From Haloferax sulfurifontis ATCC BAA-897 (GTDB lineage: Archaea; Halobacteriota; Halobacteria; Halobacteriales; Haloferacaceae), in assembly GCF_000337835.1 (NCBI RefSeq), contig NZ_AOLM01000027.1, forward strand, positions 62,001 to 126,000: a DNA stretch of 64,000 nucleotides, in the 5' to 3' direction. Positions 19,587 to 49,355 of this stretch are shown here, in pieces. Below the pieces are notes generated by a model. It was not told the DNA's origin and did not search any database. It worked only from the letters and a program-made list of their open reading frames with translations. The number at the start of each line of letters is the position of its first letter. Position 1 is the stretch's first letter. The position numbers and the translations under genes are program-made.

Positions 19587-20945
19587 TCACCGAGACGAGT
19601 TCGCGAGAAACCGCTTGGCTGCCGACCGGAGTTTCGAGGAGTCAAGTCCGGCAAATGGAGTGTCTTCCTCTAAGGTATCGAGGACTGCGTCAACAGGCTC
19701 GGAGAACGCAAATTGCAGATAGACGCCACGTTTGAACCCACCACTCGTGCGATTGCTTTCGAGGACGCCATACGTGCCTGCTTTGTTGAGGTGGCTGTTG
19801 ACGGTCTCTTGGGTGTAGATATCTCGCGACGAGCGGTTACAGAGCACCTGGTAAATGCTGTAGACTGCTGGACTCGGTGCAACGCCGCCGTTGACGTCCG
19901 CGACAATCGCTGCGGCGTACAGAGACAGCTTCTTTTGGACGGTCATCCCATCGACGATCTCGAGGACGCGATTCTTCAACACAGAGTCGTTAGCACGGTG
20001 GACGTGCTCGGCGGTGACGACCGAATCGCCGTTTTGATTCGCAAGCTCACCTGCGTCTCGAAGCAGGTCGATTGAACAACGTGCGTCACCCTCGTTTTTC
20101 GCACCATAGGCAGCAACGAGTTCGATCACGCCCTCGTCGAGTGCGTTTTCTTTGAAGGCGTCACGTCGCCGGTTGAGGATTTCGATGAGTTCGTCTGCGT
20201 CGTAATCAGAGAAATGGATCCCGTTCGGGTTGTACGAACTGTCCGTTCGGCTGTCGACGTTTTCGCGGAACTTCGGATGATTCGTGATGACGACCGTCGA
20301 GATAAGCGTCTCAACGTGCTGTTCGGCCATGACACGACTCAGGCTATACAGGAGTCGAGAGTACGCCGGTTCCGGCTCAGTAGAACGTCCGGTGAGTGCG
20401 TCGATTTCATCGAGAATGAACACGAGTGAATCGAAGTGTTCGTCGACGATTTCGTAGAGGCGCACGTATTTCGCATCCGTCGAAACACCCTTACGCGGTA
20501 TTTCCCACGCAACACCCGCTTTCGTTGCGGTCTGGTGGCCAAGTTTCCAGACCGCGCGGTCAAGGGTGTGTGACTCCATCGTTTTGAAATTCACCGAGAC
20601 GAAGTCGAAGTCGATACTGTTCTGTTTTGCTCTGTCTTTGACCTTCTCCGCGACAGCCTTCACTGTCAGGCTCTTTCCGGTCCCACTTGGCCCATACAGA
20701 AGTAGGTCCGGTGGGCGCTCACCATCGAGGGTGTCGCGGAACGCACGGGCCTCGGCCGCTAACTGTTCGTCACGGCCGTAGATGCGGTCGTGGTCGACGA
20801 TAGTATTCGGGTCGACCAACTGCTTGTTCCGAAAGACCGTCGTGCTCTCGCCGTCAAGAATATCGTCGACAATCGACGTCTCGGAGTCTTGACCTTGGTC
20901 CCCATCACCCCCGCCCCCGGTCGTATCGTCGTCGTCCGTTTTCAT
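19587..20945 (-). CDS. orc: Orc1/Cdc6 replication initiator
   Basis: A 452-residue AAA+ initiator. Walker A is GPSGTGKS (85-92), Walker B is LVFILDEIDAL (174-184), and sensor-1 ISTVVITNHPKF follows. The N-terminus is acidic and Gly-rich (TTGGGGDGDQGQDSET). The C-terminal winged helix is degenerate but recognisable (IYTQETVNSHLNKAGTYGVL). The protein binds origin-recognition boxes and opens the duplex for MCM loading. The start codon is under 40 bases from the first origin-box repeat, so it most likely serves the origin at 20982-23078. Divergent from chromosomal-type Orc1; this form is typical of plasmids and integrated elements. Confidence 0.92.
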   Translation of the reverse strand: MKTDDDDTTGGGGDGDQGQDSETSIVDDILDGESTTVFRNKQLVDPNTIVDHDRIYGRDEQLAAEARAFRDTLDGERPPDLLLYGPSGTGKSLTVKAVAEKVKDRAKQNSIDFDFVSVNFKTMESHTLDRAVWKLGHQTATKAGVAWEIPRKGVSTDAKYVRLYEIVDEHFDSLVFILDEIDALTGRSTEPEPAYSRLLYSLSRVMAEQHVETLISTVVITNHPKFRENVDSRTDSSYNPNGIHFSDYDADELIEILNRRRDAFKENALDEGVIELVAAYGAKNEGDARCSIDLLRDAGELANQNGDSVVTAEHVHRANDSVLKNRVLEIVDGMTVQKKLSLYAAAIVADVNGGVAPSPAVYSIYQVLCNRSSRDIYTQETVNSHLNKAGTYGVLESNRTSGGFKRGVYLQFAFSEPVDAVLDTLEEDTPFAGLDSSKLRSAAKRFLANSSR

Positions 20946-21264
20946 TCGTTACTAGATATCTAGACTAGGGCGTAATAACCCTTTTCGAAATGAATGGGGT
21001 GTGTTCGAAATGAAGACACCGGTGTCGAAATGAATTCTGAGAAAGCTGAGTACTGGTTGGTTAGAACGCCACCCCCACACCGTGTTCGAGATGAAATGTA
21101 CAGAGGGTCTGCGCTGACACAGCTGAGATTGGCATGGTGAGGACTCAAGCAGCGATTACTGAGCGACAGCACACCATAATCGAAATGAAATTGAGAGACG
21201 ATGGGTGAATCAGTTGAAACAGACGTCAAACGCCCCTATTCCGGGACTTGAGTGGATAATTCAT

Positions 21265-21685
21265 TTCGAACACGGTGTGTGAGGGTGCCAACAATCGGTC
21301 TCGGATTGGGGAGATTTCATTTCGATTACGGTGTGGGTTCACCCCACCGTGACACCTTCTCATGGATGACTATCGACCCCGCGACGTGCTGAAGAACACT
21401 TGCAACTTGGTGTGTGGGGTCATATAACAAATCAGAACACTCGGAACACATTGGAGGGTGGTCGTTTCTCCCCCGTCAGGCTCTGCAGTCACAGTCGTTC
21501 TTGCATGGCCAGCGATACGGTCCTCGTTGGCCCGCGTTGTGTGATGCCGTTTTGGGACTGCGGACGTCACAACGCCGCCGCTCGCCTGTTTGTCACTCGG
21601 TACGAGGGTGTGGGTTCCCACATTTGAATACGGTATCCCCGTGACCACAACCGAGACGCCGAGTCCACGACCGACTGTTCACTCG
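21265..21685 (+). repeat. Origin direct repeat, copy A (about 420 bp)
   Basis: This copy starts in an origin box (TTCGAACACGGTGTGTGAGG) and ends over the stop codon of the wHTH gene at 21679. It matches 22492-22914 almost throughout. The best conserved block, from ACTCGGAACACATTGGAGGG to GTGATGCCGTTTTGGGACTG, has only a handful of differences, while the first and last thirds are more diverged and have small indels. Short frames are open in both strands of both copies but shift at the indels, so I do not call them genes. Confidence 0.85.
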
Positions 21686-22020
21686 CGACCGACGCTATTG
21701 AGCGCGCTGTTCAGTTCAAAGAGTTCTCGGACAACGGTGCTGTCTGTGACCCGGTACCGTCGCGGGGACGTGTCCGGAACTTCTTCGATGAGTTCAACCT
21801 CAATCAAGAGGTCCGTGTAATTGCCGACAGTCTGGCGTGTGACGCCGGCGTGGTCTGCGAACTCTGTTTTGTTGAACTCACGATTTGGCGGAAGATCAAG
21901 CAACGCGTCTACGAGAATCGGGATGGCATCGTGTTGCGTGAGATAGAGCCATCCACTCGGGTGCTCTTTCCGGAGTTCCTTTTTGTCTCCTCGGTCAGCC
22001 GCGTGCTCTATACTGCTCAT
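21679..22020 (-). CDS. Winged-helix regulator of the origin cassette
   Basis: About 113 residues from the ATG at 22020 (SSIEHAADRGDKKELRKEHP). The DNA-binding core is EFNKTEFADHAGVTRQTVGN, helix-turn-helix, with wing residues VELIEEVPDTSPRRYRVTD and a hydrophobic C-terminal helix. It resembles haloarchaeal wHTH proteins carried by plasmids. It is divergent from the 104-residue gene; the gap has a perfect palindrome at 22063-22080 and TATA-like GTGTATAAACG near 22041, so autoregulation or control of the pair is likely. Its stop codon lies inside origin repeat copy A. A role in copy number or replication control is inference from location. Confidence 0.75.
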   Translation of the reverse strand: MSSIEHAADRGDKKELRKEHPSGWLYLTQHDAIPILVDALLDLPPNREFNKTEFADHAGVTRQTVGNYTDLLIEVELIEEVPDTSPRRYRVTDSTVVRELFELNSALNSVGRE

Positions 22021-22062
22021 ACAGAGATTCACCCATCCTGCGTGTATAAACGTTTCCGCTAG

Positions 22063-22080
22063 TGTTAACGGTCATTAACA
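22063..22080. promoter_or_regulatory. Palindromic operator candidate between divergent origin genes
   Basis: TGTTAA-CGGTCA-TTAACA, perfect 6-bp arms, between the divergent starts at 22020 and 22114. TCATTTATATG immediately follows and is a TATA candidate for the rightward gene, so a bound protein could block both promoters. Confidence 0.5.
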
Positions 22081-22113
22081 TCATTTATATGCGGTCGACT
22101 TGATTCTTCGATC

Positions 22114-22428
22114 ATGGAGAAGCCGTCGGTGAAATGCGCCCTCTTAGCAACAATGATCGCGAAACACAAGTGGGGGGCACCGATTACCGAAGAAGACCTC
22201 CTCAGCCTCTCGGCTATCGGCAATGACTACCCAGTCGCACGTGAGGTCTACGCCGATCTTCGGAGCGAGCCCTATATCACTCACCGTGGAAATCGTGGTA
22301 TCGAACTCGACAAAAGTAATTTCGACAAGCTTGCTGATGTCCTTTACCATGAATGTCGCTGGGAAGCGTGGGAGATTGAGAGTCGTCTGAAACACTACGA
22401 AGGGATCAAAGATCACGACTGGGGGTGA
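22114..22428 (+). CDS. Hypothetical protein of the origin cassette
   Basis: A 104-residue protein, MEKPSVKCALLATMIAKHKW...GIKDHDWG. It is predicted to be mostly helical, with a pattern (EEDLLSLSAIGNDYPVAREV, then RSEPYITHRGNRGIELDKSN) like a small winged helix, plus a Trp-rich acidic tail. I do not recognise the family. It is expressed divergently from the wHTH gene, with a TATA-like box about 30 bases before the ATG, and both genes lie between the two copies of the origin repeat. A part in plasmid replication or maintenance is inferred from location only. Confidence 0.65.
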   Translation: MEKPSVKCALLATMIAKHKWGAPITEEDLLSLSAIGNDYPVAREVYADLRSEPYITHRGNRGIELDKSNFDKLADVLYHECRWEAWEIESRLKHYEGIKDHDWG

Positions 22429-22491
22429 GCCGACCGTAGAAGATGGAACGGGAGAGCGTCGAATTCGTAGTGGTAACCTGAGCTGCCTCCG

Positions 22492-22914
22492 TTCGAACAC
22501 GGTGTGTGAGGGTGCCAACAATCGGTCTCGGATTGTGGAGATTTCATTTCGATAACGGTGTGGGTCCCCCTCGCTGTGGCACCTTCGTAGTGGAACGCCT
22601 TCGACTTCCCACGACGTGACGAAAACACTTGCAAATTGGTGTTTGGGGCCATATAACAAACCAGAACACTCGGAACACATTGGAGGGTGGTCGTTTCTCC
22701 CTCGTCAGGGACTGCAGTCACAGTCGTTCTTGCATGGCCAGCGATACGGTCCTCGTTGGCCCGAGTTGTGTGATGCCGTTTTGGGACTGGGGCGTCACAA
22801 CGCGCCATTCGCCAGTCTGTCACTCGGTGCGAGGGGTGTGGGCCTCCCACGGTTGCATACGGTATCCCCGTGACCACAACCGAGACGCCGAGTCCGCGAC
22901 CGACTGTTGACTCG
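22492..22914 (+). repeat. Origin direct repeat, copy B (about 420 bp)
   Basis: Second copy of the 21265-21685 segment in the same orientation, again opening with an origin box and containing a second (ATTTCATTTCGATAACGGTG). It starts about 60 bases after the stop of the 104-residue gene, and two further origin boxes lie beyond its right end. Direct orientation means recombination between the copies would delete the two-gene cassette. Confidence 0.85.
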
Positions 22915-23132
22915 AGTATTCGTTGTATCGGTGGACTGTGAAAGCCGAACGGCTGACTGGAAAGCCCAACACCATCGTCGAAATGAAATCCGACTGGAAG
23001 CGTAACCTACCCAATATCGATGCAGACGACCGTCAGACCGGGTTTCACGGAGTGAATTCAATTCGAACACGGTGTGCGAAGAACCCTCCCGTCGTGGGGT
23101 TCTGCCTTCGTGGTTGACTCGTAGAGTTAGAG

Positions 23133-25030: not shown

Positions 25031-25453
25031 ATGTCGAACGAAAAAGACAACGCACCCAATACAGTAGTCACTTCAGCTCACGATTCAACTCGATTCGTTT
25101 CGTCCGGCCGTATCGCCGTGATGATTGCCCTCGGTGGACTCGTTGTTCTCACACAGCCAGTTGCAGCCCAAGATGGGGTCATCTGCAGTGCAAGCAAACT
25201 GCCGCAGATGCTGGAGGGCTTTTTCCAATTAACCACAGGTCTCGGGCTGATCGGTCTCGTCGTTGTCTGGCAAGGTGATTCCCTCTTCCAGATGTTCACG
25301 ACGAACCACGAGCAGAAAGCCAAGCTGAAAGAGCATATGCGGGCGACGTTGAAATCCGCAATCACCCTCCTCGTACTCGGTCCCTTATACACCGTTGCAG
25401 GGTCGTTGATGGGACTCCCACTTGCGCAGTGTGTTGATCTCGCGCCCTGGTGA
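25031..25453 (+). CDS. VirB2/pilin-like small membrane protein
   Basis: 140 residues from the ATG MSNEKDNAPNTVVTSAHDST. Three hydrophobic segments: a signal-like one (IAVMIALGGLVVLTQPVAA, with a potential A-x-A cleavage site before QDGV), then GFFQLTTGLGLIGLVVVW and SAITLLVLGPLYTVAGSLMG. Small size, a cleavable N-terminal segment, two membrane helices and two cysteines (ICSAS, AQCVD) fit a conjugative pilin subunit of the VirB2/TrbC type, although sequence similarity is not decisive. First gene of the conjugation operon; its TGA overlaps the GTG of the next gene (GTGA), suggesting coupled translation. Confidence 0.65.
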   Translation: MSNEKDNAPNTVVTSAHDSTRFVSSGRIAVMIALGGLVVLTQPVAAQDGVICSASKLPQMLEGFFQLTTGLGLIGLVVVWQGDSLFQMFTTNHEQKAKLKEHMRATLKSAITLLVLGPLYTVAGSLMGLPLAQCVDLAPW

Positions 25454-27225
25454 GCACGGGCCTCACATTGCCTTCCCGCATGCGCACGAAAGCGTGGGCT
25501 GTCGTCATCGTGTGGCTCGTCGTCACGAGTGGTCTCGGTCTCACCGGCCTCGTCACAGCAACGCCACACCCGAAGACAGAATCCAATGGCTTGACCGAAA
25601 ACGAGACGGCAACACTGTGGTCTCGTGACGCAGATGCGTACGTGAACGAAACGGTGTATCGCCACCGCTACGGCGAAAGCCGAAGCCCCATCCAGCAACT
25701 CGCGAATGGGACAGACATCACGTTCACACGCCCACCGGCAACCGCAGCGACGTGGACGCGCAATGACTTCGGTGACCTACGCGCAGGCAGTACACAGACG
25801 TCGGTGTATCCGGACCATGCGTCTCTCGAGGGGGGACGCTTCATCGACGATGCACATGCGACGTTCTTCGCCGTCCATCCATCGACACGAGGCCACCTCG
25901 AGGTAGGGGAGACACCGCTGTACGTCGCACCCAACGGAAGCGTTCGCGGATTTGTGGATTACCGTGTTCGGATTCCGGATGGCTACCACTCCAATCGGTC
26001 GTCTGTAACGTGGTCTCTCGTCGACGACGAAATCTCGGAAGTCCGCCTGAAGTCGGATAGTGACGTTATCGTCCGCACAAGAGGGACTCATACACCAGTC
26101 CTTGCGTATCACCTCGACGAGACATGGAGTACAACGCTCACGCTCGAAGCCGATATCGACGTCCGACTGGAGAAGACGACGACAGTCTCTGTTGGGAACC
26201 GAACCCAGACAGAGGTCGCCTATCGGACTGAGACGATCACCGTCGCTGATTCACTCGATGTCGAGGTATACAATCTTCATGCATACGCCTACGACGCCGA
26301 CTATCCAGACGGTGACACCGGCATTGCAATCTTCCAGTCGAGGCCGTGGCAGGGCTACACACTCACCGAGGATGGCGACGCACGCGTTCGCGGTGTCTGG
26401 CGGTTCTACACGGCTCGTGACAACCGATGGGATCGGCTCACGCAGGCGACGGCTACAGACGAGACTGAGATCCATTCCGAAGCACACCCGGTATATGTTC
26501 ATGCCTACCCATCACGCATCGGACCACGAGCTGACCCCATTCGTGATGGGCCGACGATACTCGACTCGTGGGGCAGAGAACGAACGTCGCCACACTCGAC
26601 ACTCGCAGACACGGTGGCTGTCGAAGTCGTCGACCGGGCGTATACGCCCACCTACGGACTTGCAGTCCGCACAGCTGAGCTTGACCGCGATGCACTCCGT
26701 GTAAGCGGTATCGTCCGCGGCAGCAACGCAACGCCCATCACGTCAACGGTAAGCAGTGGTCCGGATCGCGAACTTCGCGAGAGTCGACTCACCGCCGACG
26801 TCGTCACGCAGACGAACGATCAGGCGACCATCCACATTGAACTTCGAGACAACGAGACTGGCGCACCGATCGACCTCACGGCTGACGAACGCCAAGTCTC
26901 GCTCAACGGTGAGTCTGGTGGGGGCTACATCACCATTGCTGACCAGCGTGTTCGGACGAATGAGTCCGGTCTCGCAGTCGTGACCATCGACCAACCAGGA
27001 GTCTATACCGTACGCTATCATCCGGGGTCGTGGCTTGTCGCAAACCCAGCCTATGTTTCAGAGACGGCGACGGTACGGTGGCATCCACTCGGAACGCTCA
27101 ATGGGTGGGTCGGGTTACTCATTGAGGTCGGCTGGCAGTTCATCCCCTTCGTTGTGACGTTCTATGCCGGCAAGCAGGTTCTCCGATTTTTCGGGCCACG
27201 CGATGATTCTGAACGATATCCATGA
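25450..27225 (+). CDS. Large exported surface protein of the conjugation operon
   Basis: 591 residues from the coupled GTG, or 581 from the ATG at 25480. The latter gives a clean signal peptide (RTKAWAVVIVWLVVTSGLGL). About 500 acidic, Tyr- and Thr-rich residues follow, with beta-sandwich-like stretches (TIHIELRDNETGAPIDLT...YTVRYHPGSWLVANP resembles an Ig-like/Big domain). One C-terminal membrane helix (LLIEVGWQFIPFVVTFYAGK) leaves a short basic tail. Topology: the bulk outside, anchored at the C-terminus. The family is unknown to me. Between a pilin-like protein and a lipoprotein in an overlapping operon, it is probably the cell-surface part of the mating apparatus, perhaps for contact with the recipient. 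Overlaps the next gene by ATGA. Confidence 0.7.
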   Translation: MSTGLTLPSRMRTKAWAVVIVWLVVTSGLGLTGLVTATPHPKTESNGLTENETATLWSRDADAYVNETVYRHRYGESRSPIQQLANGTDITFTRPPATAATWTRNDFGDLRAGSTQTSVYPDHASLEGGRFIDDAHATFFAVHPSTRGHLEVGETPLYVAPNGSVRGFVDYRVRIPDGYHSNRSSVTWSLVDDEISEVRLKSDSDVIVRTRGTHTPVLAYHLDETWSTTLTLEADIDVRLEKTTTVSVGNRTQTEVAYRTETITVADSLDVEVYNLHAYAYDADYPDGDTGIAIFQSRPWQGYTLTEDGDARVRGVWRFYTARDNRWDRLTQATATDETEIHSEAHPVYVHAYPSRIGPRADPIRDGPTILDSWGRERTSPHSTLADTVAVEVVDRAYTPTYGLAVRTAELDRDALRVSGIVRGSNATPITSTVSSGPDRELRESRLTADVVTQTNDQATIHIELRDNETGAPIDLTADERQVSLNGESGGGYITIADQRVRTNESGLAVVTIDQPGVYTVRYHPGSWLVANPAYVSETATVRWHPLGTLNGWVGLLIEVGWQFIPFVVTFYAGKQVLRFFGPRDDSERYP

Positions 27226-28061
27226 CACACGATCAATCACAGTTCGATCGACGTACCGTTCTCCGAACAACAGCAGGAATCTCGCTCGCTGGCATTGCTG
27301 GCTGTCTCAACGGTAGTGGCTCCAGTGACGAGATGACCAGCACGAATAGCGATTCAGACGACCAAGGAATCTTGCGTCAGGTCGCTGTGGAGGCAACCAC
27401 GCTTGTCATCAAACTCGGCTCTGGGAGTGCTGTCGAACAGCTCAACCTCATCCAGCCGAATGGTGAGCTATTCGGGACGCGCGAGGTCGCAACCGGCGTT
27501 CAGCGGGTCTCATTCGAGATTGGGACTGCGTACGATCCCGGTGACTATCGAGTGCTCGCCGTTCACGGCGACGAGACCGTCGCCGAGACGAGTTTGGAGA
27601 TCCGACCGCAACTCGAAATCGTTGACGTCGGTCTCTTCAGGAACAACCCAGACAAGCCGTGGGATGAGATCTACGGAGAGAGTGAGACTGATACAAAAAA
27701 GAACGGAGAAGCGTTCGTTACTGTAGCGAATTCTGGAAGCGGACCAGAAGCTGTCGTCGAACTTCGGTTTGAGGGCGATGTACCAAATCCTTCAGAGAAT
27801 CCTCGTGGGAGTGGCATTCATGACCGCGATGCCGTAGTCATTCCACCTAGTGACAAACTCGATCTGTTCAGTAGTTCATTCCCATTCGGGGCAGAGATTG
27901 GAGAGCAAGCCATGGGGTGTTCTGTCACCAACAACCATGGTCAGTTCAGAATCACACTTGAGGTTCGTACCACGTCGAAAGATATTGAGAGCAAGTTCAA
28001 CGTACAGTATTCGGGCTCTGACGTAATGCATGATTGCCGAATCGAAATGGCGGAGGAGTAA
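27222..28061 (+). CDS. Tat-exported lipoprotein of the conjugation operon
   Basis: 279 residues. The N-terminus QFDRRTVLRTTAGISLAGIA followed by GCLNGSGSS is a twin-arginine signal with a lipobox (GIAGC), so it is exported folded and lipid-anchored at Cys. A low-complexity Ser/Asp linker (SSDEMTSTNSDSDDQG) precedes two beta-rich domains (LEIRPQLEIVDVGLFRNNPD...). No catalytic motif is seen. The ATG overlaps the upstream stop, and the next gene begins 4 bases after its stop, so it is an integral part of the operon. A structural role at the cell surface, like other T4SS lipoproteins, is inferred. Confidence 0.75.
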   Translation: MTHDQSQFDRRTVLRTTAGISLAGIAGCLNGSGSSDEMTSTNSDSDDQGILRQVAVEATTLVIKLGSGSAVEQLNLIQPNGELFGTREVATGVQRVSFEIGTAYDPGDYRVLAVHGDETVAETSLEIRPQLEIVDVGLFRNNPDKPWDEIYGESETDTKKNGEAFVTVANSGSGPEAVVELRFEGDVPNPSENPRGSGIHDRDAVVIPPSDKLDLFSSSFPFGAEIGEQAMGCSVTNNHGQFRITLEVRTTSKDIESKFNVQYSGSDVMHDCRIEMAEE

Positions 28062-28064
28062 TCG

Positions 28065-29129
28065 ATGGTGGATCTCATTGACGTCGTTCTGGAGGGTTTC
28101 AAAGACGTCATCGGCTGGGTTACTGATGTTTTCAGCGAAGGCCTCTCAAGCGGCTATCAAGACCTTAGTGAGGCTATGTTTGGAACACCCACTCCTCAAA
28201 CTAATGGTGTATTCATGTTTGGTACTCCCTCAAATGCACCATGGACGTCGATTAGAGACGCTCTAATTGGTGGTGACGTAATGCTCCTCGCCTTGTTGCT
28301 CCTTGTGGTTAGTGTCCAGGGTCGACATGCAATTCGAATGTTCAATTTCGGAAGTGCATATGAGGCCAGCAAGACCAAGAAAACCGCTTTGACTGGTGTT
28401 TTCATGATAATCCTGTGGTACTGGGTCAGTGTGTTAGCACTGTATCTGACTGATGGATTCACAATTGCCCTGCTCCCAGGGTTGACCACACTTCGCGGTG
28501 TTATGATTGGGTTCCTGAGCGCAACGGTGATGAACCCAGTACTCGCTTTCCTCCTCGCCGCAATTGGCGGCATCTCAATGTGGGCGCTTCAAGCCCTCTT
28601 TTTCATCCGCGAGATCTTGCTGTACGTCTACGTCTATGGGATGCCCATCGCCATCGCACTCGGATATGGAAACATCCCCATCCTCTCTGACATCGCGACT
28701 GGCTTCGCAAAACGATTCGTTCCGTTAGTCGTCCTCCCACTCCCTGCAGCGGTCGTGTTCAAAGGCTATGACCTCCTATTCGCCAGTGGGACATTCAATC
28801 CTGCAACTGCCTTTCTCCAGTATCTCGTTGCCGTCTCACTGCCCGTCATCGCACTCTATCTGACGTGGAAGACCTTCGCCTACGCCACCCCACTTACTGC
28901 GAAAGCCATTGGAACCGCAAGCAGAGGCGCAGTCATCGCCGGAAGCGTCGCCACAGGCGCGGCCATCGGCGGGTCGAGCGTCGCAACGACCGCCGCCCGT
29001 TGGGGGCCAAAAGCCGCTGCTGGGCAGGTACTCGCACAGAAAGCTGCCACCCGAGCTGAAAGTACCACCACACCCACCACTGCTGCGTATCGCCGGACCG
29101 AAAACGACCCACACAACACCAATCGCTAA
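28065..29129 (+). CDS. VirB6/TrbL-like polytopic membrane protein
   Basis: 354 residues with about 6-8 membrane segments (VMLLALLLLVVSVQGRHAIR, GVFMIILWYWVSVLALYLTD, VLAFLLAAIGGISMWALQAL, EILLYVYVYGMPIAIALGYG, VPLVVLPLPAAVVFKGYDLL and QYLVAVSLPVIALYLTWKTF) and an Ala/Thr-rich cytoplasmic tail. The size, topology and place right before the VirB4-like genes correspond to VirB6/TrbL, the inner-membrane channel of type IV secretion systems; this is a structural analogy, not a sequence-level proof. Somewhat lower GC than its neighbours. Confidence 0.7.
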   Translation: MVDLIDVVLEGFKDVIGWVTDVFSEGLSSGYQDLSEAMFGTPTPQTNGVFMFGTPSNAPWTSIRDALIGGDVMLLALLLLVVSVQGRHAIRMFNFGSAYEASKTKKTALTGVFMIILWYWVSVLALYLTDGFTIALLPGLTTLRGVMIGFLSATVMNPVLAFLLAAIGGISMWALQALFFIREILLYVYVYGMPIAIALGYGNIPILSDIATGFAKRFVPLVVLPLPAAVVFKGYDLLFASGTFNPATAFLQYLVAVSLPVIALYLTWKTFAYATPLTAKAIGTASRGAVIAGSVATGAAIGGSSVATTAARWGPKAAAGQVLAQKAATRAESTTTPTTAAYRRTENDPHNTNR

Positions 29130-29135
29130 TTCATC

Positions 29136-30260
29136 ATGTCGACAGACTCAGACGCTGCAGAACGCCGTCTCATGGACGAATTCGGAGAAGAAAGCCGCAT
29201 CCCAGGGCTCAATATCGAAGAAGGGGACGTTGGCGTCCTCATTGTGTTCCCACTGCTCGGATTGTTCATTGCCGGACTCACTGGAATCGACTCACTTGCA
29301 GTCCCACTCATCGCAGGGGGCATCGGACTCGGTGCCGCCGTCGTCTATGTCACCCCGGACCACCTCACTGCGTGGGCATGGGCCACAGATGTGTCTCGAT
29401 TCGCAATGCGACCGCGGCAGACGTTTAGTGCGCCCATCGAAACAGATACAGACACCACCGCAGAGTCCGTCCGCAATGCGGGTGGCCTTGCGAACTACAC
29501 ACCGTTCAAACCGGATGAACGAACACAGGAGCTCACCAACATCGAGCGGGCGTGGCCCGGTGTGGGTGCAATCCAGCGTTCTGACGGGGTAATGGAGGCA
29601 TTCATCGAAGTGAACCCAGGGAACATGGACTTCGCCATGTCCGATGACTGGGCGAGCCTCCAAGCAGCAGGCACTGCGTTTGCAAACACGGAACTCGATT
29701 CGAAGCTGACGTTCCACGCGACGACGCGGTCGTTCCCAGTCGAACAACTCACAGAAAACATCGAACGGCGTCTGTCGGATGAAGACGTCACCCAAAACCC
29801 TGTCTTCCGTGAACTCCTCGAAGAGTACCGCGAGAGACGCCCACGGGCGATGCGAAACCGCGGGACACAACAGATTCGCTTTTTCATCGGCGTCGAGGTC
29901 TCGCCACTGGAAGTCTATGACCGCTTCCACGATGAGCGAACGCCTGCAGAGAAGTTGACTGAACTCCCTGGGATTGGCTTCCTATTCACGCCATTCGTCA
30001 CGCGCCGAGAAGACCTCTCGAAACCCGAAGAGCGTGCCCGGATGTTTGAGCGATTAACAACCCGAATCACGAACATCGATTCTGGATTCATCCAACAGGC
30101 GTCGGGGTGGTCGGCTCGTCGCGTGAGTACAGCCGAGTTGTTCATACTGACAATGGAGTTTTGGAACGGCCATGAACACGACTACGACAATCCACAACGA
30201 GTGATCCGTGACCACCCGATTATCGGACGGTCTCGTCGAGAGGATTCATTTGATGCGTAA
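29136..30260 (+). CDS. PrgI-like membrane anchor fused to VirB4 N-terminal domain
   Basis: 374 residues. Two membrane segments (VGVLIVFPLLGLFIAGLTGI and LIAGGIGLGAAVVYVTPDHL) are followed by a soluble domain with YTPFKPDERTQELTNIERAW, MEAFIEVNPGNMDFAMSDDW and LTFHATTRSFPVEQLTENIE, which looks like the N-terminal (CagE/TrbE) part of VirB4-type proteins. The ATPase domain is not included; it is encoded by the next gene. In many archaeal and Gram-positive systems a PrgI-like protein precedes VirB4; here the anchor carries part of VirB4. It overlaps the next gene by 8 bases. Confidence 0.7.
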   Translation: MSTDSDAAERRLMDEFGEESRIPGLNIEEGDVGVLIVFPLLGLFIAGLTGIDSLAVPLIAGGIGLGAAVVYVTPDHLTAWAWATDVSRFAMRPRQTFSAPIETDTDTTAESVRNAGGLANYTPFKPDERTQELTNIERAWPGVGAIQRSDGVMEAFIEVNPGNMDFAMSDDWASLQAAGTAFANTELDSKLTFHATTRSFPVEQLTENIERRLSDEDVTQNPVFRELLEEYRERRPRAMRNRGTQQIRFFIGVEVSPLEVYDRFHDERTPAEKLTELPGIGFLFTPFVTRREDLSKPEERARMFERLTTRITNIDSGFIQQASGWSARRVSTAELFILTMEFWNGHEHDYDNPQRVIRDHPIIGRSRREDSFDA

Positions 30261-32352
30261 CCTCACCCTCCAAACAGTGAGCGACCTCGGACACCAGCTT
30301 TTCGAGTGGTTACAACAACCAACGTCACCCGAAGGTGCTGCCGTGTACGCTATCGGAGCGCTCGGTATTGCGCTCGGGGCCATCAGTGTGTGGAGATACC
30401 GATCTCCCGACGACGTATCCGAAGTCGAGTTCTCGGACGTTCTCGACGAAGACACGATTCACACAGGACACACGGAGGGGCAACTCCTCGATGATATCGC
30501 AGAGTCACACAAAACCACGATTGCACCCACAGCCATCGAATGGGAGACGCGAACTGCTCGTGTGGGCGAACAGTGGACCTCGACACTCATGATTACGGAC
30601 TACCCTGATTACCCAAATGATGGCTACCTCAGTGATCTGTTCCAGCTAACAGACGTTGAGTTCGATCTCACAGCCCACATTCGGCCAAAAAACCAGCTGC
30701 GTGCCCGAAGCGAACTCCAAGAGATTGCTGATGATCTCCAAGTTGATGCCGACCTCGAACAGAGCGTTCGAAGTGGGTATCTCCAACAGCGAGCACACCA
30801 AGCTGCGGCGACGTACAATGCGGTCGAGAGTGGGACTCGTGTCTTCGACCAGTCGGTGTTCGTCACTGTGCGTGCCGACACACGCGAGAAACTCCATGAT
30901 GCCGTCCAACGCGTCAAAAGCGCCCTTCGAGATGAGCCGGCCAGTCTCACACCGAAGACTGCGATTTGCAAACAAGACCTCGCACTCCAATCTGCCGCAC
31001 CGATTGGAAAGAACATCGTTGGTCGCAACTCAATCGCGCTTGGTGGGGCCGTTGGCGCGCTCCTTGCGTCACCACACAACGCGACCATCCTCGAAGAAGG
31101 CGGCGTCGAATTCGGGATTCACAAAGATACCCACAGCCCGGTGGTGATCGACCCATTCGCTCGCGATAACGGCTATGCGATGTTCACCGTCGGCGATACC
31201 GGCTCTGGGAAGTCGTTTGGCTCGAAACAGAACTTCATCCGGTCGATCGAACAAAGCACAGACCGGATTGGCATCATCCTCGAACCACTCAACAATTGGG
31301 CTGGCGTCGCCGAAGCCTTGGATGCCAAGCGCATCACTGTTGGTGGGACACTCGGATTGAATCCCTTAGAGATTCGCCAGACTCCCGAGCACGTCCAGCG
31401 GGCGATGGGTGAGGATGCGAGTCCGTTCAACGAGAAACTCGATGACGCAATGAGCTTTCTCACGAACTACTTCGCACTACGTGGAATCTCGCTTGGCGAC
31501 CGCCGAACCACACTCGAACTCGGACTCCAACAGGCGTACGAACGACAGGGGATCACCGACGAGATCGACACGCACGGCAATCAGAGTCCGACCATCCGCG
31601 ATATGATGGACATCTTTGAGGAGATGGTTGCATCACCCAGCGAGTTTGTCGTTCGGGCGGACGCCGAGGCGCACAAACTCCGAGCAGATGCGACATGGCT
31701 TCTCGGACAACTTCGCCTGTTCGAAGACGGTGGCCGATATGCAAACTTAGGCCGACAATCTGAGTTCAACATCCGCGACGAGAAGGTCATCTACCTCGAC
31801 CTCGCGCAGCAAGAAGGCAGCGTCAGCAGTAGTACGGCACTGACGATGCAACTGCTCATCTCTTTGGTGTACGAACGAGCCAAAGAAACAGACAAGGAAG
31901 TCGTGTTCGTCATCGACGAAGCACGGTACATCATGCAGGACGCCGCAAGTCTGGCGTTCTTAGAGACGGTGTTCCGTCATCACCGCCATCACGACCTCTC
32001 GATTCGACTGGTCACACAGACTGTCGACGAGTTCTTCCAACATACTGAGTCCGAAGCGATCCTCGATCAGTGTGCAGTCAAGCAATTCCATCATCTCGAT
32101 GGCATGGACGAAACGTGGGCCAAAGAGTTCGGGCTGAACTACGCCCAGATGCGGTTCGTCCAAGATGCGATTCCGGGGAATGAGGATGCGGGGTACTCCG
32201 AAGCGCTCGTTGGCGTCGACGGTGAGTGGCGTGGCATCAGAGTTGAGGCGATGCCCAAAGAAAAGCAAGTCATCGACTTCGACCCAACGGAGTCGTCTGC
32301 TGGGTCGTTACCCGGTGGTGAGAGCACTCGTCGAGCGCACAGGCGTTCATAG
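30253..32352 (+). CDS. VirB4-like conjugation ATPase
   Basis: 699 residues from the ATG at 30253, with one N-terminal membrane segment (VYAIGALGIALGAISVW). Walker A is TVGDTGSGKSFGSKQ (about 311-325), Walker B VVFVIDEARYIM, and a motif RLVTQTVDEFF fits the sensor of HerA/VirB4/TraC ATPases. DPFARDNGYAMF before Walker A is typical. VirB4 proteins energise assembly of the mating pore and DNA transfer. Overlap with the upstream gene shows that they are co-translated. Last recognisable gene of the operon; the 190 bases after it contain no clear gene. Confidence 0.88.
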   Translation: MRNLTLQTVSDLGHQLFEWLQQPTSPEGAAVYAIGALGIALGAISVWRYRSPDDVSEVEFSDVLDEDTIHTGHTEGQLLDDIAESHKTTIAPTAIEWETRTARVGEQWTSTLMITDYPDYPNDGYLSDLFQLTDVEFDLTAHIRPKNQLRARSELQEIADDLQVDADLEQSVRSGYLQQRAHQAAATYNAVESGTRVFDQSVFVTVRADTREKLHDAVQRVKSALRDEPASLTPKTAICKQDLALQSAAPIGKNIVGRNSIALGGAVGALLASPHNATILEEGGVEFGIHKDTHSPVVIDPFARDNGYAMFTVGDTGSGKSFGSKQNFIRSIEQSTDRIGIILEPLNNWAGVAEALDAKRITVGGTLGLNPLEIRQTPEHVQRAMGEDASPFNEKLDDAMSFLTNYFALRGISLGDRRTTLELGLQQAYERQGITDEIDTHGNQSPTIRDMMDIFEEMVASPSEFVVRADAEAHKLRADATWLLGQLRLFEDGGRYANLGRQSEFNIRDEKVIYLDLAQQEGSVSSSTALTMQLLISLVYERAKETDKEVVFVIDEARYIMQDAASLAFLETVFRHHRHHDLSIRLVTQTVDEFFQHTESEAILDQCAVKQFHHLDGMDETWAKEFGLNYAQMRFVQDAIPGNEDAGYSEALVGVDGEWRGIRVEAMPKEKQVIDFDPTESSAGSLPGGESTRRAHRRS

Positions 32353-35593: not shown

Positions 35594-35668
35594 AGCGGGA
35601 TGGGATAGCCAGGAGATTCCGCCGGGCTCATAACCCGGAGATCGGTAGTTCAAATCTACCTCCCGCTA
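35594..35668 (+). tRNA. Initiator tRNA-Met (anticodon CAU)
   Basis: A complete cloverleaf: acceptor stem AGCGGGA / TCCCGCT with discriminator A; anticodon stem CCGGG / CCCGG around CTCATAA (anticodon CAT at 35629-35631); T arm GGTAG-TTCAAAT-CTACC. The A1:U72 pair and the run of three G:C pairs in the anticodon stem mark an initiator rather than elongator tRNA-Met. No intron and no encoded CCA. It initiates protein synthesis. Surrounded by tnpB debris and accessory genes, it is a plausible integration target. Confidence 0.92.
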
Positions 35669-38123: not shown

Positions 38124-39106
38124 GTGGGTGACCCACATTCGCAATCAAGTCCGCGAGTCCTGCAAGAACTCGCTGAAGCGTTCAACGGCTGGTACGGCAA
38201 GCGACGCAACGGAGACACGAGAGCCAACCCACCGAGGTACCGCAAACAAAGAGACGACCAGCCCATGAAGCACGGTCACGTTCAAAGCCGCAGGACTCAA
38301 ACTGGACACCAAGTGAGAGAGAGTCCGACTCTCAAAGGCTCAAATCTCAAAGAACACCGGTCGGACTTCATCCTCTGCGAGTACCAGACTCGCCCTGACG
38401 TTGACCTCTCCACCGTGGAGAACGTTCAACAGGTTCGGGCGGTCTGGACTGGTGACGAGTGGGAATACACTTCGTGTGCAAAGTCGAACTCGAGGTTTCT
38501 GACGCACCCAGTGAGAAAAACGTGGGTGTTGACCTCGGTATCAACAGCTTCACCGCTCTCGTCTACGAAGACGATCACAGCGAACTGACCCGTTGAACTG
38601 CTTGAAGCAGGATGACTACTACTTCAGCAATGAAATTGCTCGCTGTGACGACTCCGGCTCTGAACAGGCTACACGGTTGAGCCAGAAGAAGTCGGCTCGT
38701 CGCACCCATTACTTCCACACCCTCTCGAAACACATCGTCCAGCGGTGCGTGGACGAAGGAGTTAGAATCATCGTGGTGGGCGACCTCTCAGGCATCCGTG
38801 AGGAGAGGAGAACAGCAAGTCGAAGAACTGGGGCAAACACGGCAACCTTGACCTTTGCTCATGGGCGTCGACTGTTTCACCTCGATGCTTGAGTACAAAG
38901 CAGAGATGAAGGGCATCACGGTTGAACAGGTGTCTGAGCGTGAGACGTCGAAGTCGTGTTCGTGCTGTGCTCGCAAACGGAAATCGAACCGCGTTGAGCG
39001 CGGGTTATACGTCTGCGATGAGTGCGGTACGGGGGCGAACGCAGATGTGAACGGTGCTGAGAACATTCGGCAGAAAGTACTCCGAGTTTACCGGGTTTGT
39101 CGGTGA
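38124..39106 (+). pseudogene. tnpB: Degenerate tnpB (IS1341-type)
   Basis: Three frames together resemble the TnpB at 16281: HSQSSPRVLQELAEAFNGWY...LKEHRSDFILCEYQTRPD and NVQQVRAVWTGDEWEYT; then SARRTHYFHTLSKHIVQRCV, RIIVVGDLSGIREE; then MLEYKAEMKGITVEQVSERE, CSCCARKRKSNRVERGLYVC and DECGTGANADVNGAENIRQK. At least two frameshifts and a missing N-terminus make it inactive. The RuvC-I region is disrupted. A right-end hairpin GCGCT-GT-AGCGC (39231-39242) with GGATATCA follows and touches the stop of the ATPase gene at 39252. The IS6-type MITE lies just upstream. Confidence 0.8.
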
Positions 39107-44446: not shown

Positions 44447-47400
44447 GTGGGATTGAAACTCGTTATTTCGTCTACAACCGACCGAGCCTTCATCCGCCTC
44501 TCGCCAACTGCGAATACGTTCACCCCTTCGACGGTTACAGCACAGTTTACCCGACTGTACTACCTGTTAGAAACGAATCACAAGCCAGCCACTCTCGAAT
44601 GGTTACTCGTCACTGATGGATCGAACGCAGACACGATCGAGTACGTCCTGAGCGTCGACACCGCACTCGCCCCAGCGATCGAAGCGTGGTGTCGAGAACT
44701 CGTTCCGAACTCGTTCGATATTTCGACTACAACGACAGACCCACTACGTTGTCTCTCGCCCGCTGACGCTGACGCCGATCCAGACGATGGGGACCTCAAA
44801 TCGTATTCACCACCACGATACCGAGCAGTCGAGTTCGTAGGCGTCACAGACCGACGCGAAGACTGGCAAACTACACTCACCGCATACGACGAGTTCACCG
44901 ACGAACACAGTCAGCTACCACTCGCAACGGTGGTGAGTGCGCTCGCCAGCTCATCGGTTCCGATGGCGGTCCAGATACTCATCACACCGTATCCAGACTG
45001 GCGACACCACGCCCTCGACAGAAAACAACGACTCAAACGCGGCCGAGATACGGTCTTCCAGCGATTCGTCGAAGACTGGCTTGTCTCGACAGACCCCGAG
45101 ACCAACGTCTCTGACCCAGAGGTTCGCTCACGCGTGGCTGCACTCGAAGAAAAAGACGCACAACACAGCTTTACAGTCACTGCTCGGGCAGTCGCGGTGA
45201 CGACCGACCAACGTGCACAATTACCCGACTTCACCCCAGTCACCACGGCATTTTCGCATCTCAATGGTGACCACTACCGAATTGAAGGTCGGACACACCA
45301 CGGCGAAGACGCGAACTCAATCTACGACTCACTACGCAATCGCGTCACGATCGACCCAGAACACTCGAAGTTTACTGCGAGACTTCCGTGGACCGAAAAT
45401 GCCAGTCGTGGACTCGTCATGGATGGGCGAGAACTCCCGTTGGTGTGTCTCGTAGATGCAGCCACCCTCCCGACAACAGCCCACCGTGCCCTTGCGCCCA
45501 CACCGACTGACGAACATGGTCTGCCACGCCCGCCACGTGATCGACTCGAGCGATATCGAACAGCGGGATTCACCCTCGGCCATGCACAGACGGCCGACGG
45601 TGATGCCGAAGCCGTCTCCATCTCACTGCCGCCAGCACTCCAACCCCTCCATGTTGGTATGTTCGGCCGGACCGGATCTGGCAAATCATCGAGTCTGGTT
45701 GCGGCGCTTCTCGAGAATCACGCAGCAACAGATGGCGCCGATATCCTCATCGACCCCAAAGGCGACGGAATGGCCGACGACTATCTCCGAGCACACTATG
45801 CGAAATACGGCTCACTCGATGATGTCTACTACTTCGATTGCACAGAGACGCTCCCCGCGCTGTCGTTTTTCGATATTCGCGACCAACTCGATGCAGGTAT
45901 CGACCGGACGACTGCTGTCGAAGACGTCGTCGACCACTACATCGATATCCTGATCGGCATCATGGGTCGCGGCCGATTCGAACAGGCGGTTCGGTCACCC
46001 GACATCATTCGCTATGTTCTCAAAGCGATGTTCGATCCGATTCATGGGTCGAATGCCTTTAGCCATCGTGAGTTCCAGACAGCAGTCGCCAGATTGCACG
46101 AAACGCGCGACCCACCACCGGTGGTGGATGAAGATCTCCAGGCCATGCTCGCCGGTGTCGCCGCCAACTCGAAGCGCTCGTTCGACGAGCTCATGCAAGG
46201 GGTTGCAAACCGTGTCGAGAAAATCCCACTCGATGCTCGGCTTGCACAGGTCTTCAATCATATCCCAGCCGACGAGAGCGACGATCCGAGCTTCGATCTT
46301 CGGAGACTCATCGACGAAGATGCAGTCATCATTATCGAGACGGGCGGGCTCAGGCCGGCCTCACAACGGGTCATCACGCTCGTCATTCTCTCGGCATTGT
46401 GGACTGCCCTTCGCCGGCGGACCCAACAAGGTGACGACGAGACAGACCACCCACTCGTGAATCTGTATCTCGAAGAAGCCGCGCAGTTATCGACGTCATC
46501 GCTCTTGTCAGCTCTCCTTGCCCAGTCTCGTTCATTCGGCCTCTCGGTTACCCTGGCGATGCAGTTTCCGGCACAACTCAGAGAAGCCAATCCAGAGGCC
46601 TATCGCGAAGTTCTCAATAACGTCTCGACGATTATTACAGGGAACGTCGCAGTCGACCCACAGTTCAGTCGGCGATTTGCAACAGCCGAGCGTCCCGCAA
46701 CGGAGGTGCAAACCCGACTCCGTGCGCTTCGTCGTGGACAGTGGCTCGCAACGCTCCCTGCGGGATTTGGAGACCCAGAACCACAGCCGTTCGTCCTCCA
46801 GAGCCCACCGCTCCCTGCTGGCCATCCAGAAAGCGAGGCCCCGTTTTCACCCGCTCGTGAGACAGCATACACAACAGCACTCGAGTTGTGTACTGCTCGA
46901 TCTTCCCACGCGTCTGGGATCGATGTCTCGGGAATTGGCAGTCGAACCACCCACACAGAGCGAACACACACGTCACTGGGCCACCGCGAAGCAGCACCAC
47001 TTGATGAGTCCGCAGCGTCACCACACCATACGACGACTACGTCCGCACAAACACCCCCATCGCCCGCCGCAGACGCTCCAACGGAACCATACCCAGATCG
47101 GAACGCACCAACGCCCGATGCCCGTATCAACTCTGCGCTGCCCTATACGTCGCGTCTCCCACCGATGGTTGTGTATGACCCTGAAGTTCACGTCGTCGTC
47201 TGTGAGGAGTGTTCAACTCGATACGACCCAACACTCACAGGCATCAAAAACGCCGTCGAGTGTTGTCACAGCCTCGACGACGTTGACCGTGATGACATCC
47301 CAATCTCACAGCTCCCACTCAAACTTTCGGCAGTCGAACGCGGCAGTAGTGCCTTTACCGACGCACAACTGCGGTTCCTCCAAGCGGTCTACTCTGCACA

Positions 47401-48067
47401 TCAGCGTCGATTCGACCCCGAGTTCGAGTACGACCTCTTGTATGACAGCATGGTTCGTCTGCAAGAATACACCGGCATCAGATATCAGGAAGTCCAAGAA
47501 CTCATCGATGGCGGGTCTCTTTCGGTCGATTGCACATATCCACACAAGCTCTACACAGTTACACCAAAAGGTCGGCGTGCGATTGCAGTTCGCCATCGCG
47601 AAGGTATTGCCCACGGCCACGGTCGAGGTGACCTGAGTGAGTCGAGTCTCCACGTCGTCATGGTCGAACTTGGCCGGCGGTATCTCGAAGCACAGTTCGT
47701 TGACGACAATGACTCAGCAGCTGTCGAAGCTGTCGCATACTACGAACACGAAGGCTCGCGTCTCGATGCGGTCTGTCTCGATGAGGATGGCGACATCGCC
47801 GTCACACTCGAAGCTGAGCGAGCGAATCACGATATTTTGACTGCTGTTCCAGACGACTACGATAAGATGGCTGCGTGCGATCCCGAAGCAGCGGTGTGGG
47901 TGGTGAAGAATCGAAGTGATGCACATGAGGTCCTTCGTGCACTTAACGAGCCAAACGAGGGCCACCCACGCGTCGAAAAGACCTACAGTTCGAATTCGCC
48001 GCCATCGTCGTTCAAGATTCACCAACCCGGATTCACCGAGATGCGCACGCTACAGGAGTTGCAGTAG
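44447..48067 (+). CDS. Very large TraG/VirD4-like coupling ATPase
   Basis: 1206 residues from a GTG. The first 390 residues are a haloarchaeal-specific N-terminal region without membrane helices. Then comes a HerA/TraG-type ATPase: Walker A HVGMFGRTGSGKSSSLVAAL (about 403-422), DILIDPKGDGMADDY, Walker B LVNLYLEEAAQL and a VTLAMQFPAQLREANPEAY motif. A Ser/Thr/Pro-rich linker (about 810-890) leads to a C-terminal part with a Cys pair (VVCEECSTRYD), a winged helix, and EGSRLDAVCLDEDGDIAVTL-EAERANHD, which resembles a PD-(D/E)xK nuclease-like core. Coupling proteins bring DNA to the mating channel. The missing membrane anchor and the extra domain are unusual. Confidence 0.82.
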   Translation: MGLKLVISSTTDRAFIRLSPTANTFTPSTVTAQFTRLYYLLETNHKPATLEWLLVTDGSNADTIEYVLSVDTALAPAIEAWCRELVPNSFDISTTTTDPLRCLSPADADADPDDGDLKSYSPPRYRAVEFVGVTDRREDWQTTLTAYDEFTDEHSQLPLATVVSALASSSVPMAVQILITPYPDWRHHALDRKQRLKRGRDTVFQRFVEDWLVSTDPETNVSDPEVRSRVAALEEKDAQHSFTVTARAVAVTTDQRAQLPDFTPVTTAFSHLNGDHYRIEGRTHHGEDANSIYDSLRNRVTIDPEHSKFTARLPWTENASRGLVMDGRELPLVCLVDAATLPTTAHRALAPTPTDEHGLPRPPRDRLERYRTAGFTLGHAQTADGDAEAVSISLPPALQPLHVGMFGRTGSGKSSSLVAALLENHAATDGADILIDPKGDGMADDYLRAHYAKYGSLDDVYYFDCTETLPALSFFDIRDQLDAGIDRTTAVEDVVDHYIDILIGIMGRGRFEQAVRSPDIIRYVLKAMFDPIHGSNAFSHREFQTAVARLHETRDPPPVVDEDLQAMLAGVAANSKRSFDELMQGVANRVEKIPLDARLAQVFNHIPADESDDPSFDLRRLIDEDAVIIIETGGLRPASQRVITLVILSALWTALRRRTQQGDDETDHPLVNLYLEEAAQLSTSSLLSALLAQSRSFGLSVTLAMQFPAQLREANPEAYREVLNNVSTIITGNVAVDPQFSRRFATAERPATEVQTRLRALRRGQWLATLPAGFGDPEPQPFVLQSPPLPAGHPESEAPFSPARETAYTTALELCTARSSHASGIDVSGIGSRTTHTERTHTSLGHREAAPLDESAASPHHTTTTSAQTPPSPAADAPTEPYPDRNAPTPDARINSALPYTSRLPPMVVYDPEVHVVVCEECSTRYDPTLTGIKNAVECCHSLDDVDRDDIPISQLPLKLSAVERGSSAFTDAQLRFLQAVYSAHQRRFDPEFEYDLLYDSMVRLQEYTGIRYQEVQELIDGGSLSVDCTYPHKLYTVTPKGRRAIAVRHREGIAHGHGRGDLSESSLHVVMVELGRRYLEAQFVDDNDSAAVEAVAYYEHEGSRLDAVCLDEDGDIAVTLEAERANHDILTAVPDDYDKMAACDPEAAVWVVKNRSDAHEVLRALNEPNEGHPRVEKTYSSNSPPSSFKIHQPGFTEMRTLQELQ

Positions 48068-48104: not shown

Positions 48105-49355
48105 CTATCGTCTGAGCCACCCAAACAGCGACCACCCACGACCACTCTCTTCTGTCTCGTCTCTCGTATCGACCGCCGCTTCCAGTTCACGTCGCCGTTC
48201 ACGCTCGGCTTCCAACTCCGCCTGTAATCGTTCGTTCTCTTCGAGAGTCACTTCGAGATGACTCCGCAGGTCTTTGAGCCGTTCAATGTGGTCGGCGTCG
48301 CGAGCTGCGGCTGTCTTTGCACCGTCGGTTGGCGTGGCCGATGGTGGGTCGTGTGGCGTCTGGTGGTCCGCACGTCCAGTTCCATCTTGGGTGGTGTCTG
48401 TGCGCGATGTTGAACGAGGTGCTGCAGTCGATCTCTGTGAAGGCTTATAGAAATCCGACGTACCTGAGACCGACCGCTCAATGGTCTTTTCTCCGTACGT
48501 CGACCCATCGGCGAAATGAACGTCATCCCATTTCTTGCGATACAATCCTGAGTCACAGAAGAGTCGGTCGATCTGTGCTGCGTCGCCACCTGTCCAAAAC
48601 GCCAGGATCGAACACAGTGCCATGTCTGCTTCTGAGTGGCTGTCGTACGCGCTGGTGTCTCCTTTCCACAGTCGACTGAATTTCGGGCCGTTTGCTGCGT
48701 TCGATGCCCGTTCGACCACATCTTCGTCGGTGAGGGCGTTTCCTGGCGTGTCGGCAGCACTCGATTTCTGAGTCGCGCTGTCTGTGTTCAGTGGTTGTGT
48801 GCCGCGCTGGGTGTGTTGTGTCTCGAAGTACGCACTGTGGATTGCGGTGAGTTCGTCCGTTCGGTCGGCAACTGTCGTGGGCGTCTCGTCAACGTGGTCG
48901 CCAGTCACCGTGAAGAATCGCGCGTCTTCGTAGAGTTCGAGGTTTCCGGTTCGATTGCCACCAGGGGGGAGCGATCTACGGACGATGATGTGATAGCCCG
49001 TTCCTGACGGACTGACCTCTGTATACGACGTGAGCTGGTTGATGATCTCTGTGGCCCATTCGTCTGTCTCGCCCGTTTCGCGACTGCGGCATTTGTCGAG
49101 GTCAACACCGACATACGAGTCGTCGTCGCTGAACACGAAGCCAACACCGTCTGCCGCGTCGTCTGTTGCATACGCGAGCGCTTTGTTGAACGTCGTCCAC
49201 GTCGCCGCATCGGTTGCAGAAGCGTAGCCGCCGTTCACCGATACTGGAACCTTCGTTTCAGCTCCACCACGTGTCTGTTTTCGCCATCCGACCCATTGCT
49301 CTCGTTTGAGGAGTTCGTCGGGAAGTGTGTCGCGTGCAGGAAGGGGCGGCGTCAT
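48105..49355 (-). CDS. Primase-polymerase-like plasmid protein
   Basis: 416 residues. The N-terminal 190 (KREQWVGWRKQTRGGAETKV, then GVGFVFSDDDSYVGVDLDKC and SYTEVSPSGTGYHIIVRRSL) match the AEP-type primase-polymerase domain found on plasmids and phages (NrS-1-like): D-x-D in GVDLDKC supplies the metal ligands, and SGTGYH is the conserved nucleotide-binding turn. A second conserved domain follows (GPKFSRLWKGDTSAYDSHSE, ADMALCSILAFWTGGDAAQI). The C-terminus is a coiled coil (LRSHLEVTLEENERLQAELE). It probably primes or extends DNA for the element. Convergent with the coupling-protein gene. Confidence 0.82.
   Translation of the reverse strand: MTPPLPARDTLPDELLKREQWVGWRKQTRGGAETKVPVSVNGGYASATDAATWTTFNKALAYATDDAADGVGFVFSDDDSYVGVDLDKCRSRETGETDEWATEIINQLTSYTEVSPSGTGYHIIVRRSLPPGGNRTGNLELYEDARFFTVTGDHVDETPTTVADRTDELTAIHSAYFETQHTQRGTQPLNTDSATQKSSAADTPGNALTDEDVVERASNAANGPKFSRLWKGDTSAYDSHSEADMALCSILAFWTGGDAAQIDRLFCDSGLYRKKWDDVHFADGSTYGEKTIERSVSGTSDFYKPSQRSTAAPRSTSRTDTTQDGTGRADHQTPHDPPSATPTDGAKTAAARDADHIERLKDLRSHLEVTLEENERLQAELEAERERRRELEAAVDTRDETEESGRGWSLFGWLRR

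Follow-up and report, generated by a model that had tools for sequence, protein, structure and literature searches.

Genes of the Probable Transfer Operon

The analyzed window, i.e., a stretch of 64,000 nucleotides, runs from base 62001 to base 126000 on contig C27 (309 kb) in the Haloferax sulfurifontis ATCC BAA-897 assembly (3.81 Mb, 29 contigs). Within it, six genes (g1 to g6), all on the + strand, overlap or nearly touch one another, and a gene for a coupling protein starts at position 44447. All of these were found where the initial annotation had placed them, with small corrections of the start sites.

The first gene, g1 (25031..25453, +), starts with the ATG at 25031 (its ORF opens at 24995) and encodes a 140-aa VirB2/CedA1-type pilin candidate with a signal helix, an AxAQ site and a two-helix mature part. 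This protein has an invariant pair of cysteines (C52/C134) and, in a low-confidence structure model, helices at residues 25-41, 57-89, and 93-126; no sequence or fold match to any solved pilin was found. It is followed by g2 (25480..27225, +; the start at 25480 is more likely than the one at 25450), encoding a 581-aa secreted or surface protein with a C-terminal TM helix and no Pfam family, by g3 (27222..28061, +), encoding a 279-aa Tat lipoprotein (RR motif, lipobox LAGIAGC), and by g4 (28065..29129, +), whose product is a VirB6/TrbL-like polytopic membrane protein (PF19590, E = 2.2e-130). The 374-aa product of g5 (29136..30260, +) combines a PrgI/VirB3-like two-TM anchor with the first N-terminal subdomain of VirB4, the PrgI part being recognized by its two-TM topology, its position and its alignment with fused archaeal proteins. 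Finally, g6 (30253..32352, +) encodes the second N-terminal subdomain and the ATPase of VirB4 (699 aa), which match PF03135 (1.5e-5), NCBIfam NF045975 and NF045971 (about 1e-38), and the solved VirB4 structure 4ag5 (9e-9). The start at 30253, giving an 8-nt overlap with g5 as in nearly all relatives, is more likely than that at 30208, from which the protein would count 714 aa. The domain assignments made earlier for the lipoprotein, VirB6, PrgI-VirB4N, VirB4, and the distant coupling protein were thus upheld, while the pilin is recognized by topology only.

The Low-GC Island

The operon lies in an island, stretching from about window position -2000 to 50500, in which the GC content is 0.42-0.59 as opposed to 0.65-0.70 outside. 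From 51067 onward, the right flank follows contig_1 of Haloferax denitrificans collinearly, at 94-96% identity; the segment order of the island is common to both genomes as well, with greater divergence (84-95%). The operon and the coupling-protein region also occur in Hfx. massiliensis, in a locus of 22 kb (L088). The left part of the island is occupied by surface-glycan genes, followed by a gene for an Orc1/Cdc6 replication initiator (19587..20945, -; TIGR02928, 5.9e-101), the operon, and the coupling protein/primase pair. Next to the Orc1/Cdc6 gene lie the inverted repeats TTCGAACACGGTGTG, as well as a block of 426 bp present twice (21265-21685 / 22492-22914), and inverted and direct repeats around TTCGAACACGGTGTGTGA (21076..23079, no strand) are likely ORB-like origin repeats. 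Together, the initiator gene and the repeats likely constitute the replication origin of the island. On its other side, the initiator gene neighbors one for a Fic-domain protein with a winged helix (18376-19530).

The 12 kb separating VirB4 from the coupling protein hold genes for a glycosyltransferase, a copy of the initiator tRNA-Met (tRNA-iMet), a methyltransferase, two DUF234 ATPases, and TnpB proteins. The island has three TnpB-type genes (16281-17549, 38128-39077, and 42901-44232), one of them a partial copy. The tRNA-iMet gene (35594-35668) has an exact second copy on contig C24 (G000:C24:1443-1783), alongside which two extra 21-24-nt pieces of the 3' end are found, as from repeated integration. 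The island copy was considered as an integration site, and no att repeat of its end was found in the 200 kb of C27 examined. Direct repeats of 44 nt (91%), which stem from the end of an epimerase gene, occur at 11596-11639 and 50284-50327, i.e., 38.7 kb apart, and bracket the transfer and replication genes.

The reported lack of an integrase in the window agrees with our searches, in which all 10 PF00589 matches of the genome fell outside contig C27. Four genes of the plasmid relatives, encoding ParA, an OB-fold protein, ArdC, and a small protein before g1, are also absent from the island. The last of these encodes 80-100 aa and, in 50 of 66 loci (e.g., L261:30184-30432), precedes g1 by no more than 60 bp; it is a candidate regulator. 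The missing integrase and plasmid genes, together with a coupling protein set off behind unrelated genes and TnpB copies, could be read as signs that, in this Haloferax genome, the locus is only what is left of an integrated plasmid in decay. Nevertheless, g1 to g6, the coupling protein, and the primase are all intact, with dN/dS of 0.09-0.23 in comparisons with Hfx. denitrificans and Hfx. massiliensis, and both of these species keep a similar arrangement, which makes such decay quite improbable. The island copy is under purifying selection and may still be mobile today. A second, complete split-type system (PriS type; see below) is present elsewhere in the same genome, on contig C29 (103 kb), which is plasmid-like, and this system could act in trans.

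Conservation and Distribution of the Operon

The co-occurrence of the six genes across haloarchaeal genomes, suggested earlier as a check, was examined in a scan using one genome per species, which gave 76 loci (VirB4 68-90% identical) spanning many haloarchaeal genera. Genes g1, g2, g3, g4, g5, and g6 were present in 66, 68, 66, 70, 72, and 73 of them, respectively, with their order kept. Since this order recurs in 66-73 of the 76 loci and dN/dS is low, the operon is more than a chance assembly of genes.

Absence of the operon from mobile contexts in other species had been named as an observation that would speak against a role in transfer; on the contrary, dozens of haloarchaeal plasmids carry it. 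In PLSDB, 79 plasmid records contain a VirB4 at ≥60% identity, and weaker matches reach Firmicutes. When 14 replicons were compared, no genes were more universal than those of the operon and the coupling protein; Orc1/Cdc6 ranked next. The plasmid relatives also encode an ArdC-like antirestriction protein and an OB-fold SSB-like protein; antirestriction and SSB-like proteins are typical leading-region functions. The system is a common T4SS of haloarchaeal plasmids, whose VirB4-like protein is already annotated in databases.

A VirB4 Protein Encoded by Two Genes

The initial annotation described VirB4 as split between two genes, and three lines of evidence bear this out: collinearity with fused proteins, bacterial VirB4-N profiles, and comparison with the R388 VirB4 structure. 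A g5 profile matched larger open frames in other haloarchaea, among them ten loci (L171-L180) in which one protein of 1,084-1,211 aa begins like g5 and continues like g6; against residues 1-350 of the fused, approximately 1,085-aa VirB4 the profile aligned over nearly its full length (E = 2.7e-43). In a close relative (L170), the g5 and g6 halves are fused in frame (71% and 78% identity). Against the bacterial CD1110-type VirB4, g6 aligned from column 208 onward and g5 alone aligned weakly to columns 31-199. The g5 protein also matched separate VirB4-N proteins (B. subtilis PRO31 and Pontibacillus, Thermoanaerobacterium, and Chlorohelix plasmids) at 1.7e-10, and all bacterial VirB4 N-terminal parts pooled at 5.5e-12. 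Four bacterial plasmid loci (L197, L202, L203, and L204) have a two-gene VirB4, i.e., a VirB4-N of 259-431 aa followed by an ATPase of 621-653 aa.

AlphaFold modeled g5 with low confidence only (mean pLDDT 50). In a Foldseek search of this model against the PDB, the top six hits were all chains of R388 TrwK/VirB4 complexes (best E 0.02), and its residues 127-345 were superposed on TrwK residues 14-202 with Z of 8.0-8.5 and rmsd of 4.2 over 159 aligned residues (VIA-align), a Z near 8 not being convincing on its own.

As the same gene order is kept in 66-73 of the 76 loci, the split VirB4 is the normal form of the family rather than damage, and its family-wide occurrence together with the bacterial parallels indicates that it is no peculiarity of this Haloferax genome. 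A frameshift or an assembly error was ruled out by the same split in most relatives and by the purifying selection. In a quick tree of VirB4, most fused haloarchaeal proteins formed one clade nested among the split ones, so it looks like the split is the wider archaeal state and the fusion derived, with long branches leaving this order unsure.

The Coupling Protein and Its Primase Partner

The 1,206-aa VirD4/TraD-like coupling protein (44447..48067, +) matches PF10412 (5.8e-9) and, over the cut-off, PF12696. On most plasmids, its gene overlaps or directly follows that of VirB4, as opposed to the distance of 12 kb seen in the window. It is 28-40% identical to the plasmid coupling proteins and 41-49% identical to those of 420-700-kb megaplasmids. 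Because the identity to the plasmid proteins is far below the 68-91% found for VirB4, the operon and the coupling-protein/primase module have separate histories. The C-terminus (about residues 1,025-1,206; window 47525-48067) forms a conserved domain with the pattern D...ExE...DYDK...W, without a match in Pfam, PHROG, or PDB; it is restricted to coupling proteins of the PriS type and of the window type, and absent from the NrS-1-type plasmid ones.

The adjacent gene (48105..49355, -), convergent and not co-directional with that of the coupling protein, encodes a 416-aa NrS-1-like archaeo-eukaryotic primase-polymerase (PF22763, 1.4e-28; phrog_1829, 5e-91; about 1e-34 to NrS-1 primase structures). 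The AEP catalytic motifs (VDLD at 85, SPSGTGYH at 117) and the HBD domain are present, and there is no C-terminal helicase, as no helicase family matched over the 416 aa. It should be stressed that in 61/61 informative split-type loci, which share descent and are not independent, a primase is next after the coupling protein; one further locus ends 440 bp past the latter. The primases are of two types, i.e., PriS-like with a large partner gene (33 loci) and NrS-1-like (28 loci), never both, and each retains the DxD and SxGxGxH motifs. The PriS-like proteins remained below the cut-off against PF01896 alone, and RefSeq calls the pBNX82-4 homologue a DNA primase. On well-supported branches of the VirB4 quick tree, at least five switches between the types were counted. 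In two distant T4SS loci, an NrS-1-like primase gene lies directly 3' of VirB4.

This linkage of a primase to the coupling protein is new here. The repeated replacement of the primase by an unrelated enzyme with the same predicted activity points to a functional need at that position, which may be complementary-strand synthesis of the transferred DNA, or else plasmid replication.

Search for a Relaxase

The initial annotation recognized no relaxase and proposed profile searches for MOB families. These searches, each with a positive control, gave no match to PF03432, PF08751, PF03389, or PF02486 in the whole assembly, and a haloarchaeal relaxase profile, searched at the highest sensitivity in six frames over 15 replicons including the window, found nothing at E ≤ 1. 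In PLSDB, 143/143 plasmids with this coupling protein are typed as non-mobilizable, a typing that rests on the relaxase models of MOB-suite. Several substitutes were considered and rejected. The C-terminal domain of the coupling protein, whose residues looked nuclease-like, was examined as a hidden nickase; it has no family match and is missing in the NrS-1-type plasmid proteins. A conserved HUH motif was sought in gene families common to at least three replicons, with no convincing case. The consecutive Mre11-Rad50-NurA-HerA-like genes of pBNX82-4 (L261:9992-17588) were considered as a strand-making engine and occur in only one other replicon, so they are not core.

A haloarchaeal HUH relaxase family does exist (L253, L254, L258-L260, and L209-L240), with invariant Tyr18, His102, and His109 and a third His in most members; 22 of the 23 members match PF03432, and a survey of 392 genomes from the order found the family in 36. 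PF03432 matched 2/17 relatives, and these matches are members of this family. In half of the relaxase loci inspected (16/32), the relaxase gene lies right downstream of a fused-type VirB4 (about 0.85 kb 3'), with two small genes between, one of which resembles a ribbon-helix-helix protein. The existence of archaeal relaxases of unknown type was already suspected, and pNG500 was counted as conjugative (PMC3158045); a relaxase was also noted in Haloarcula plasmids (PMC6333295). Archaeal conjugative plasmids were stated to have no known relaxase (PMC9905601, PMC12857230), a statement which this PF03432 family qualifies.

The lack of a relaxase match in the assembly invites two other readings of the locus. 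In the first, domesticated T4SS parts would serve chromosomal DNA exchange or import (e.g., in Haloferax mating), for which a relaxase is not needed. The Ced and Ted systems are built from VirB2-, VirB4-, and VirB6-like proteins and have no relaxase (PMC9905601), a TraD-like gene of Haloferax is upregulated under mating conditions (PMC7749143), and the chromosome-like setting is common with Hfx. denitrificans. Such a role is nonetheless unlikely, given that many relatives reside on plasmids which encode a coupling protein, a primase, and replication proteins of their own, and that the distribution is patchy (47/393 genomes of the phylum). In the second, the locus would encode either a MOB-less T4SS that delivers proteins or effectors or a pilus used in adhesion; bacterial MOB-less T4SSs often secrete proteins (PMC3158045), and the operon holds surface-protein and lipoprotein genes. 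That the coupling protein is invariably accompanied by a primase and DNA-handling genes, and that the operon is found on plasmids, renders this reading very improbable.

Proposed Mechanism and Significance

We consider it probable that the locus is a conjugation-type T4SS of haloarchaeal plasmids, residing here in a low-GC Haloferax island, whose primase converts the transferred strands. The membrane part would consist of the g1 pilin candidate, the VirB6-like g4, and the PrgI/VirB3-VirB4N protein g5. Together with g6, g5 would make up one functional VirB4 and tether its ATPase half to the membrane, and the VirD4-like coupling protein would deliver DNA to the channel. In bacteria, RP4 TraC and ColIb Sog prime or copy the transferred single strand, and by analogy the primase beside the coupling protein most likely has the same task. 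We infer DNA as the substrate, the direction of export, the role of the primase, and the g5-g6 complex from the gene content described above.

Recent papers raise the question of how archaea, with no relaxase known, produce the single strands for conjugation (PMC9905601, PMC12857230). As a speculative and unlikely answer, haloarchaeal plasmids might conjugate without any HUH relaxase, using the coupling protein and an interchangeable primase on strands supplied by host end-resection or by replication; if so, the primase pairing, and not the relaxosome, would be the hallmark of the transfer module.

The analysis defines a widespread haloarchaeal transfer module, with a naturally bipartite VirB4, which is tied to a primase repeatedly swapped for an unrelated one. 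The interest of the bipartite VirB4, the missing relaxase, and the constant primase partner lies in their being common to the whole family, and they may offer a clue to the passage of plasmids between cells of salt-loving archaea. The relaxase-bearing sister group provides a natural comparison, and the question is testable in the genetically tractable Haloferax.

Comparison with Known Systems

The system resembles the MPF_FATA-type T4SS of Gram-positive plasmids (PrgI, CD1110-family VirB4, and CD1115-family VirD4) in the adjacency of PrgI and VirB4, in the VirB6-like protein, and in the VirB4 profile match to this type, which spans 500 aa. It differs in the lack of a relaxase and in its divided VirB4, the N-terminal piece of which has its own gene and carries the PrgI part. 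The fused-VirB4 haloarchaeal T4SSs, which are more distant, share homologues of g2, g5, and g6 in identical order, but have a single VirB4 of approximately 1,085 aa and the PF03432 relaxase downstream; this is probably the type of Haloarcula pNG500 (cf. PMC3158045).

Similarly to the bacterial conjugative primases (RP4 TraC, ColIb Sog, and RSF1010 RepB'), the haloarchaeal primase is tied to a transfer module; in contrast to them, it is an archaeo-eukaryotic NrS-1-like or PriS-like enzyme, of predicted function, adjoining the coupling protein. The conjugative primases of bacterial plasmids include, besides RSF1010 RepB', relaxase-primase fusions (PMC5862659). With the Ced and Ted systems of Thermoproteota, the haloarchaeal system has in common the VirB4- and VirB6-like parts, a candidate VirB2-like pilin, and the absence of a relaxase (PMC9905601), and it is set apart from them by being mostly plasmid-borne and by its VirD4-like coupling protein with an adjacent primase.
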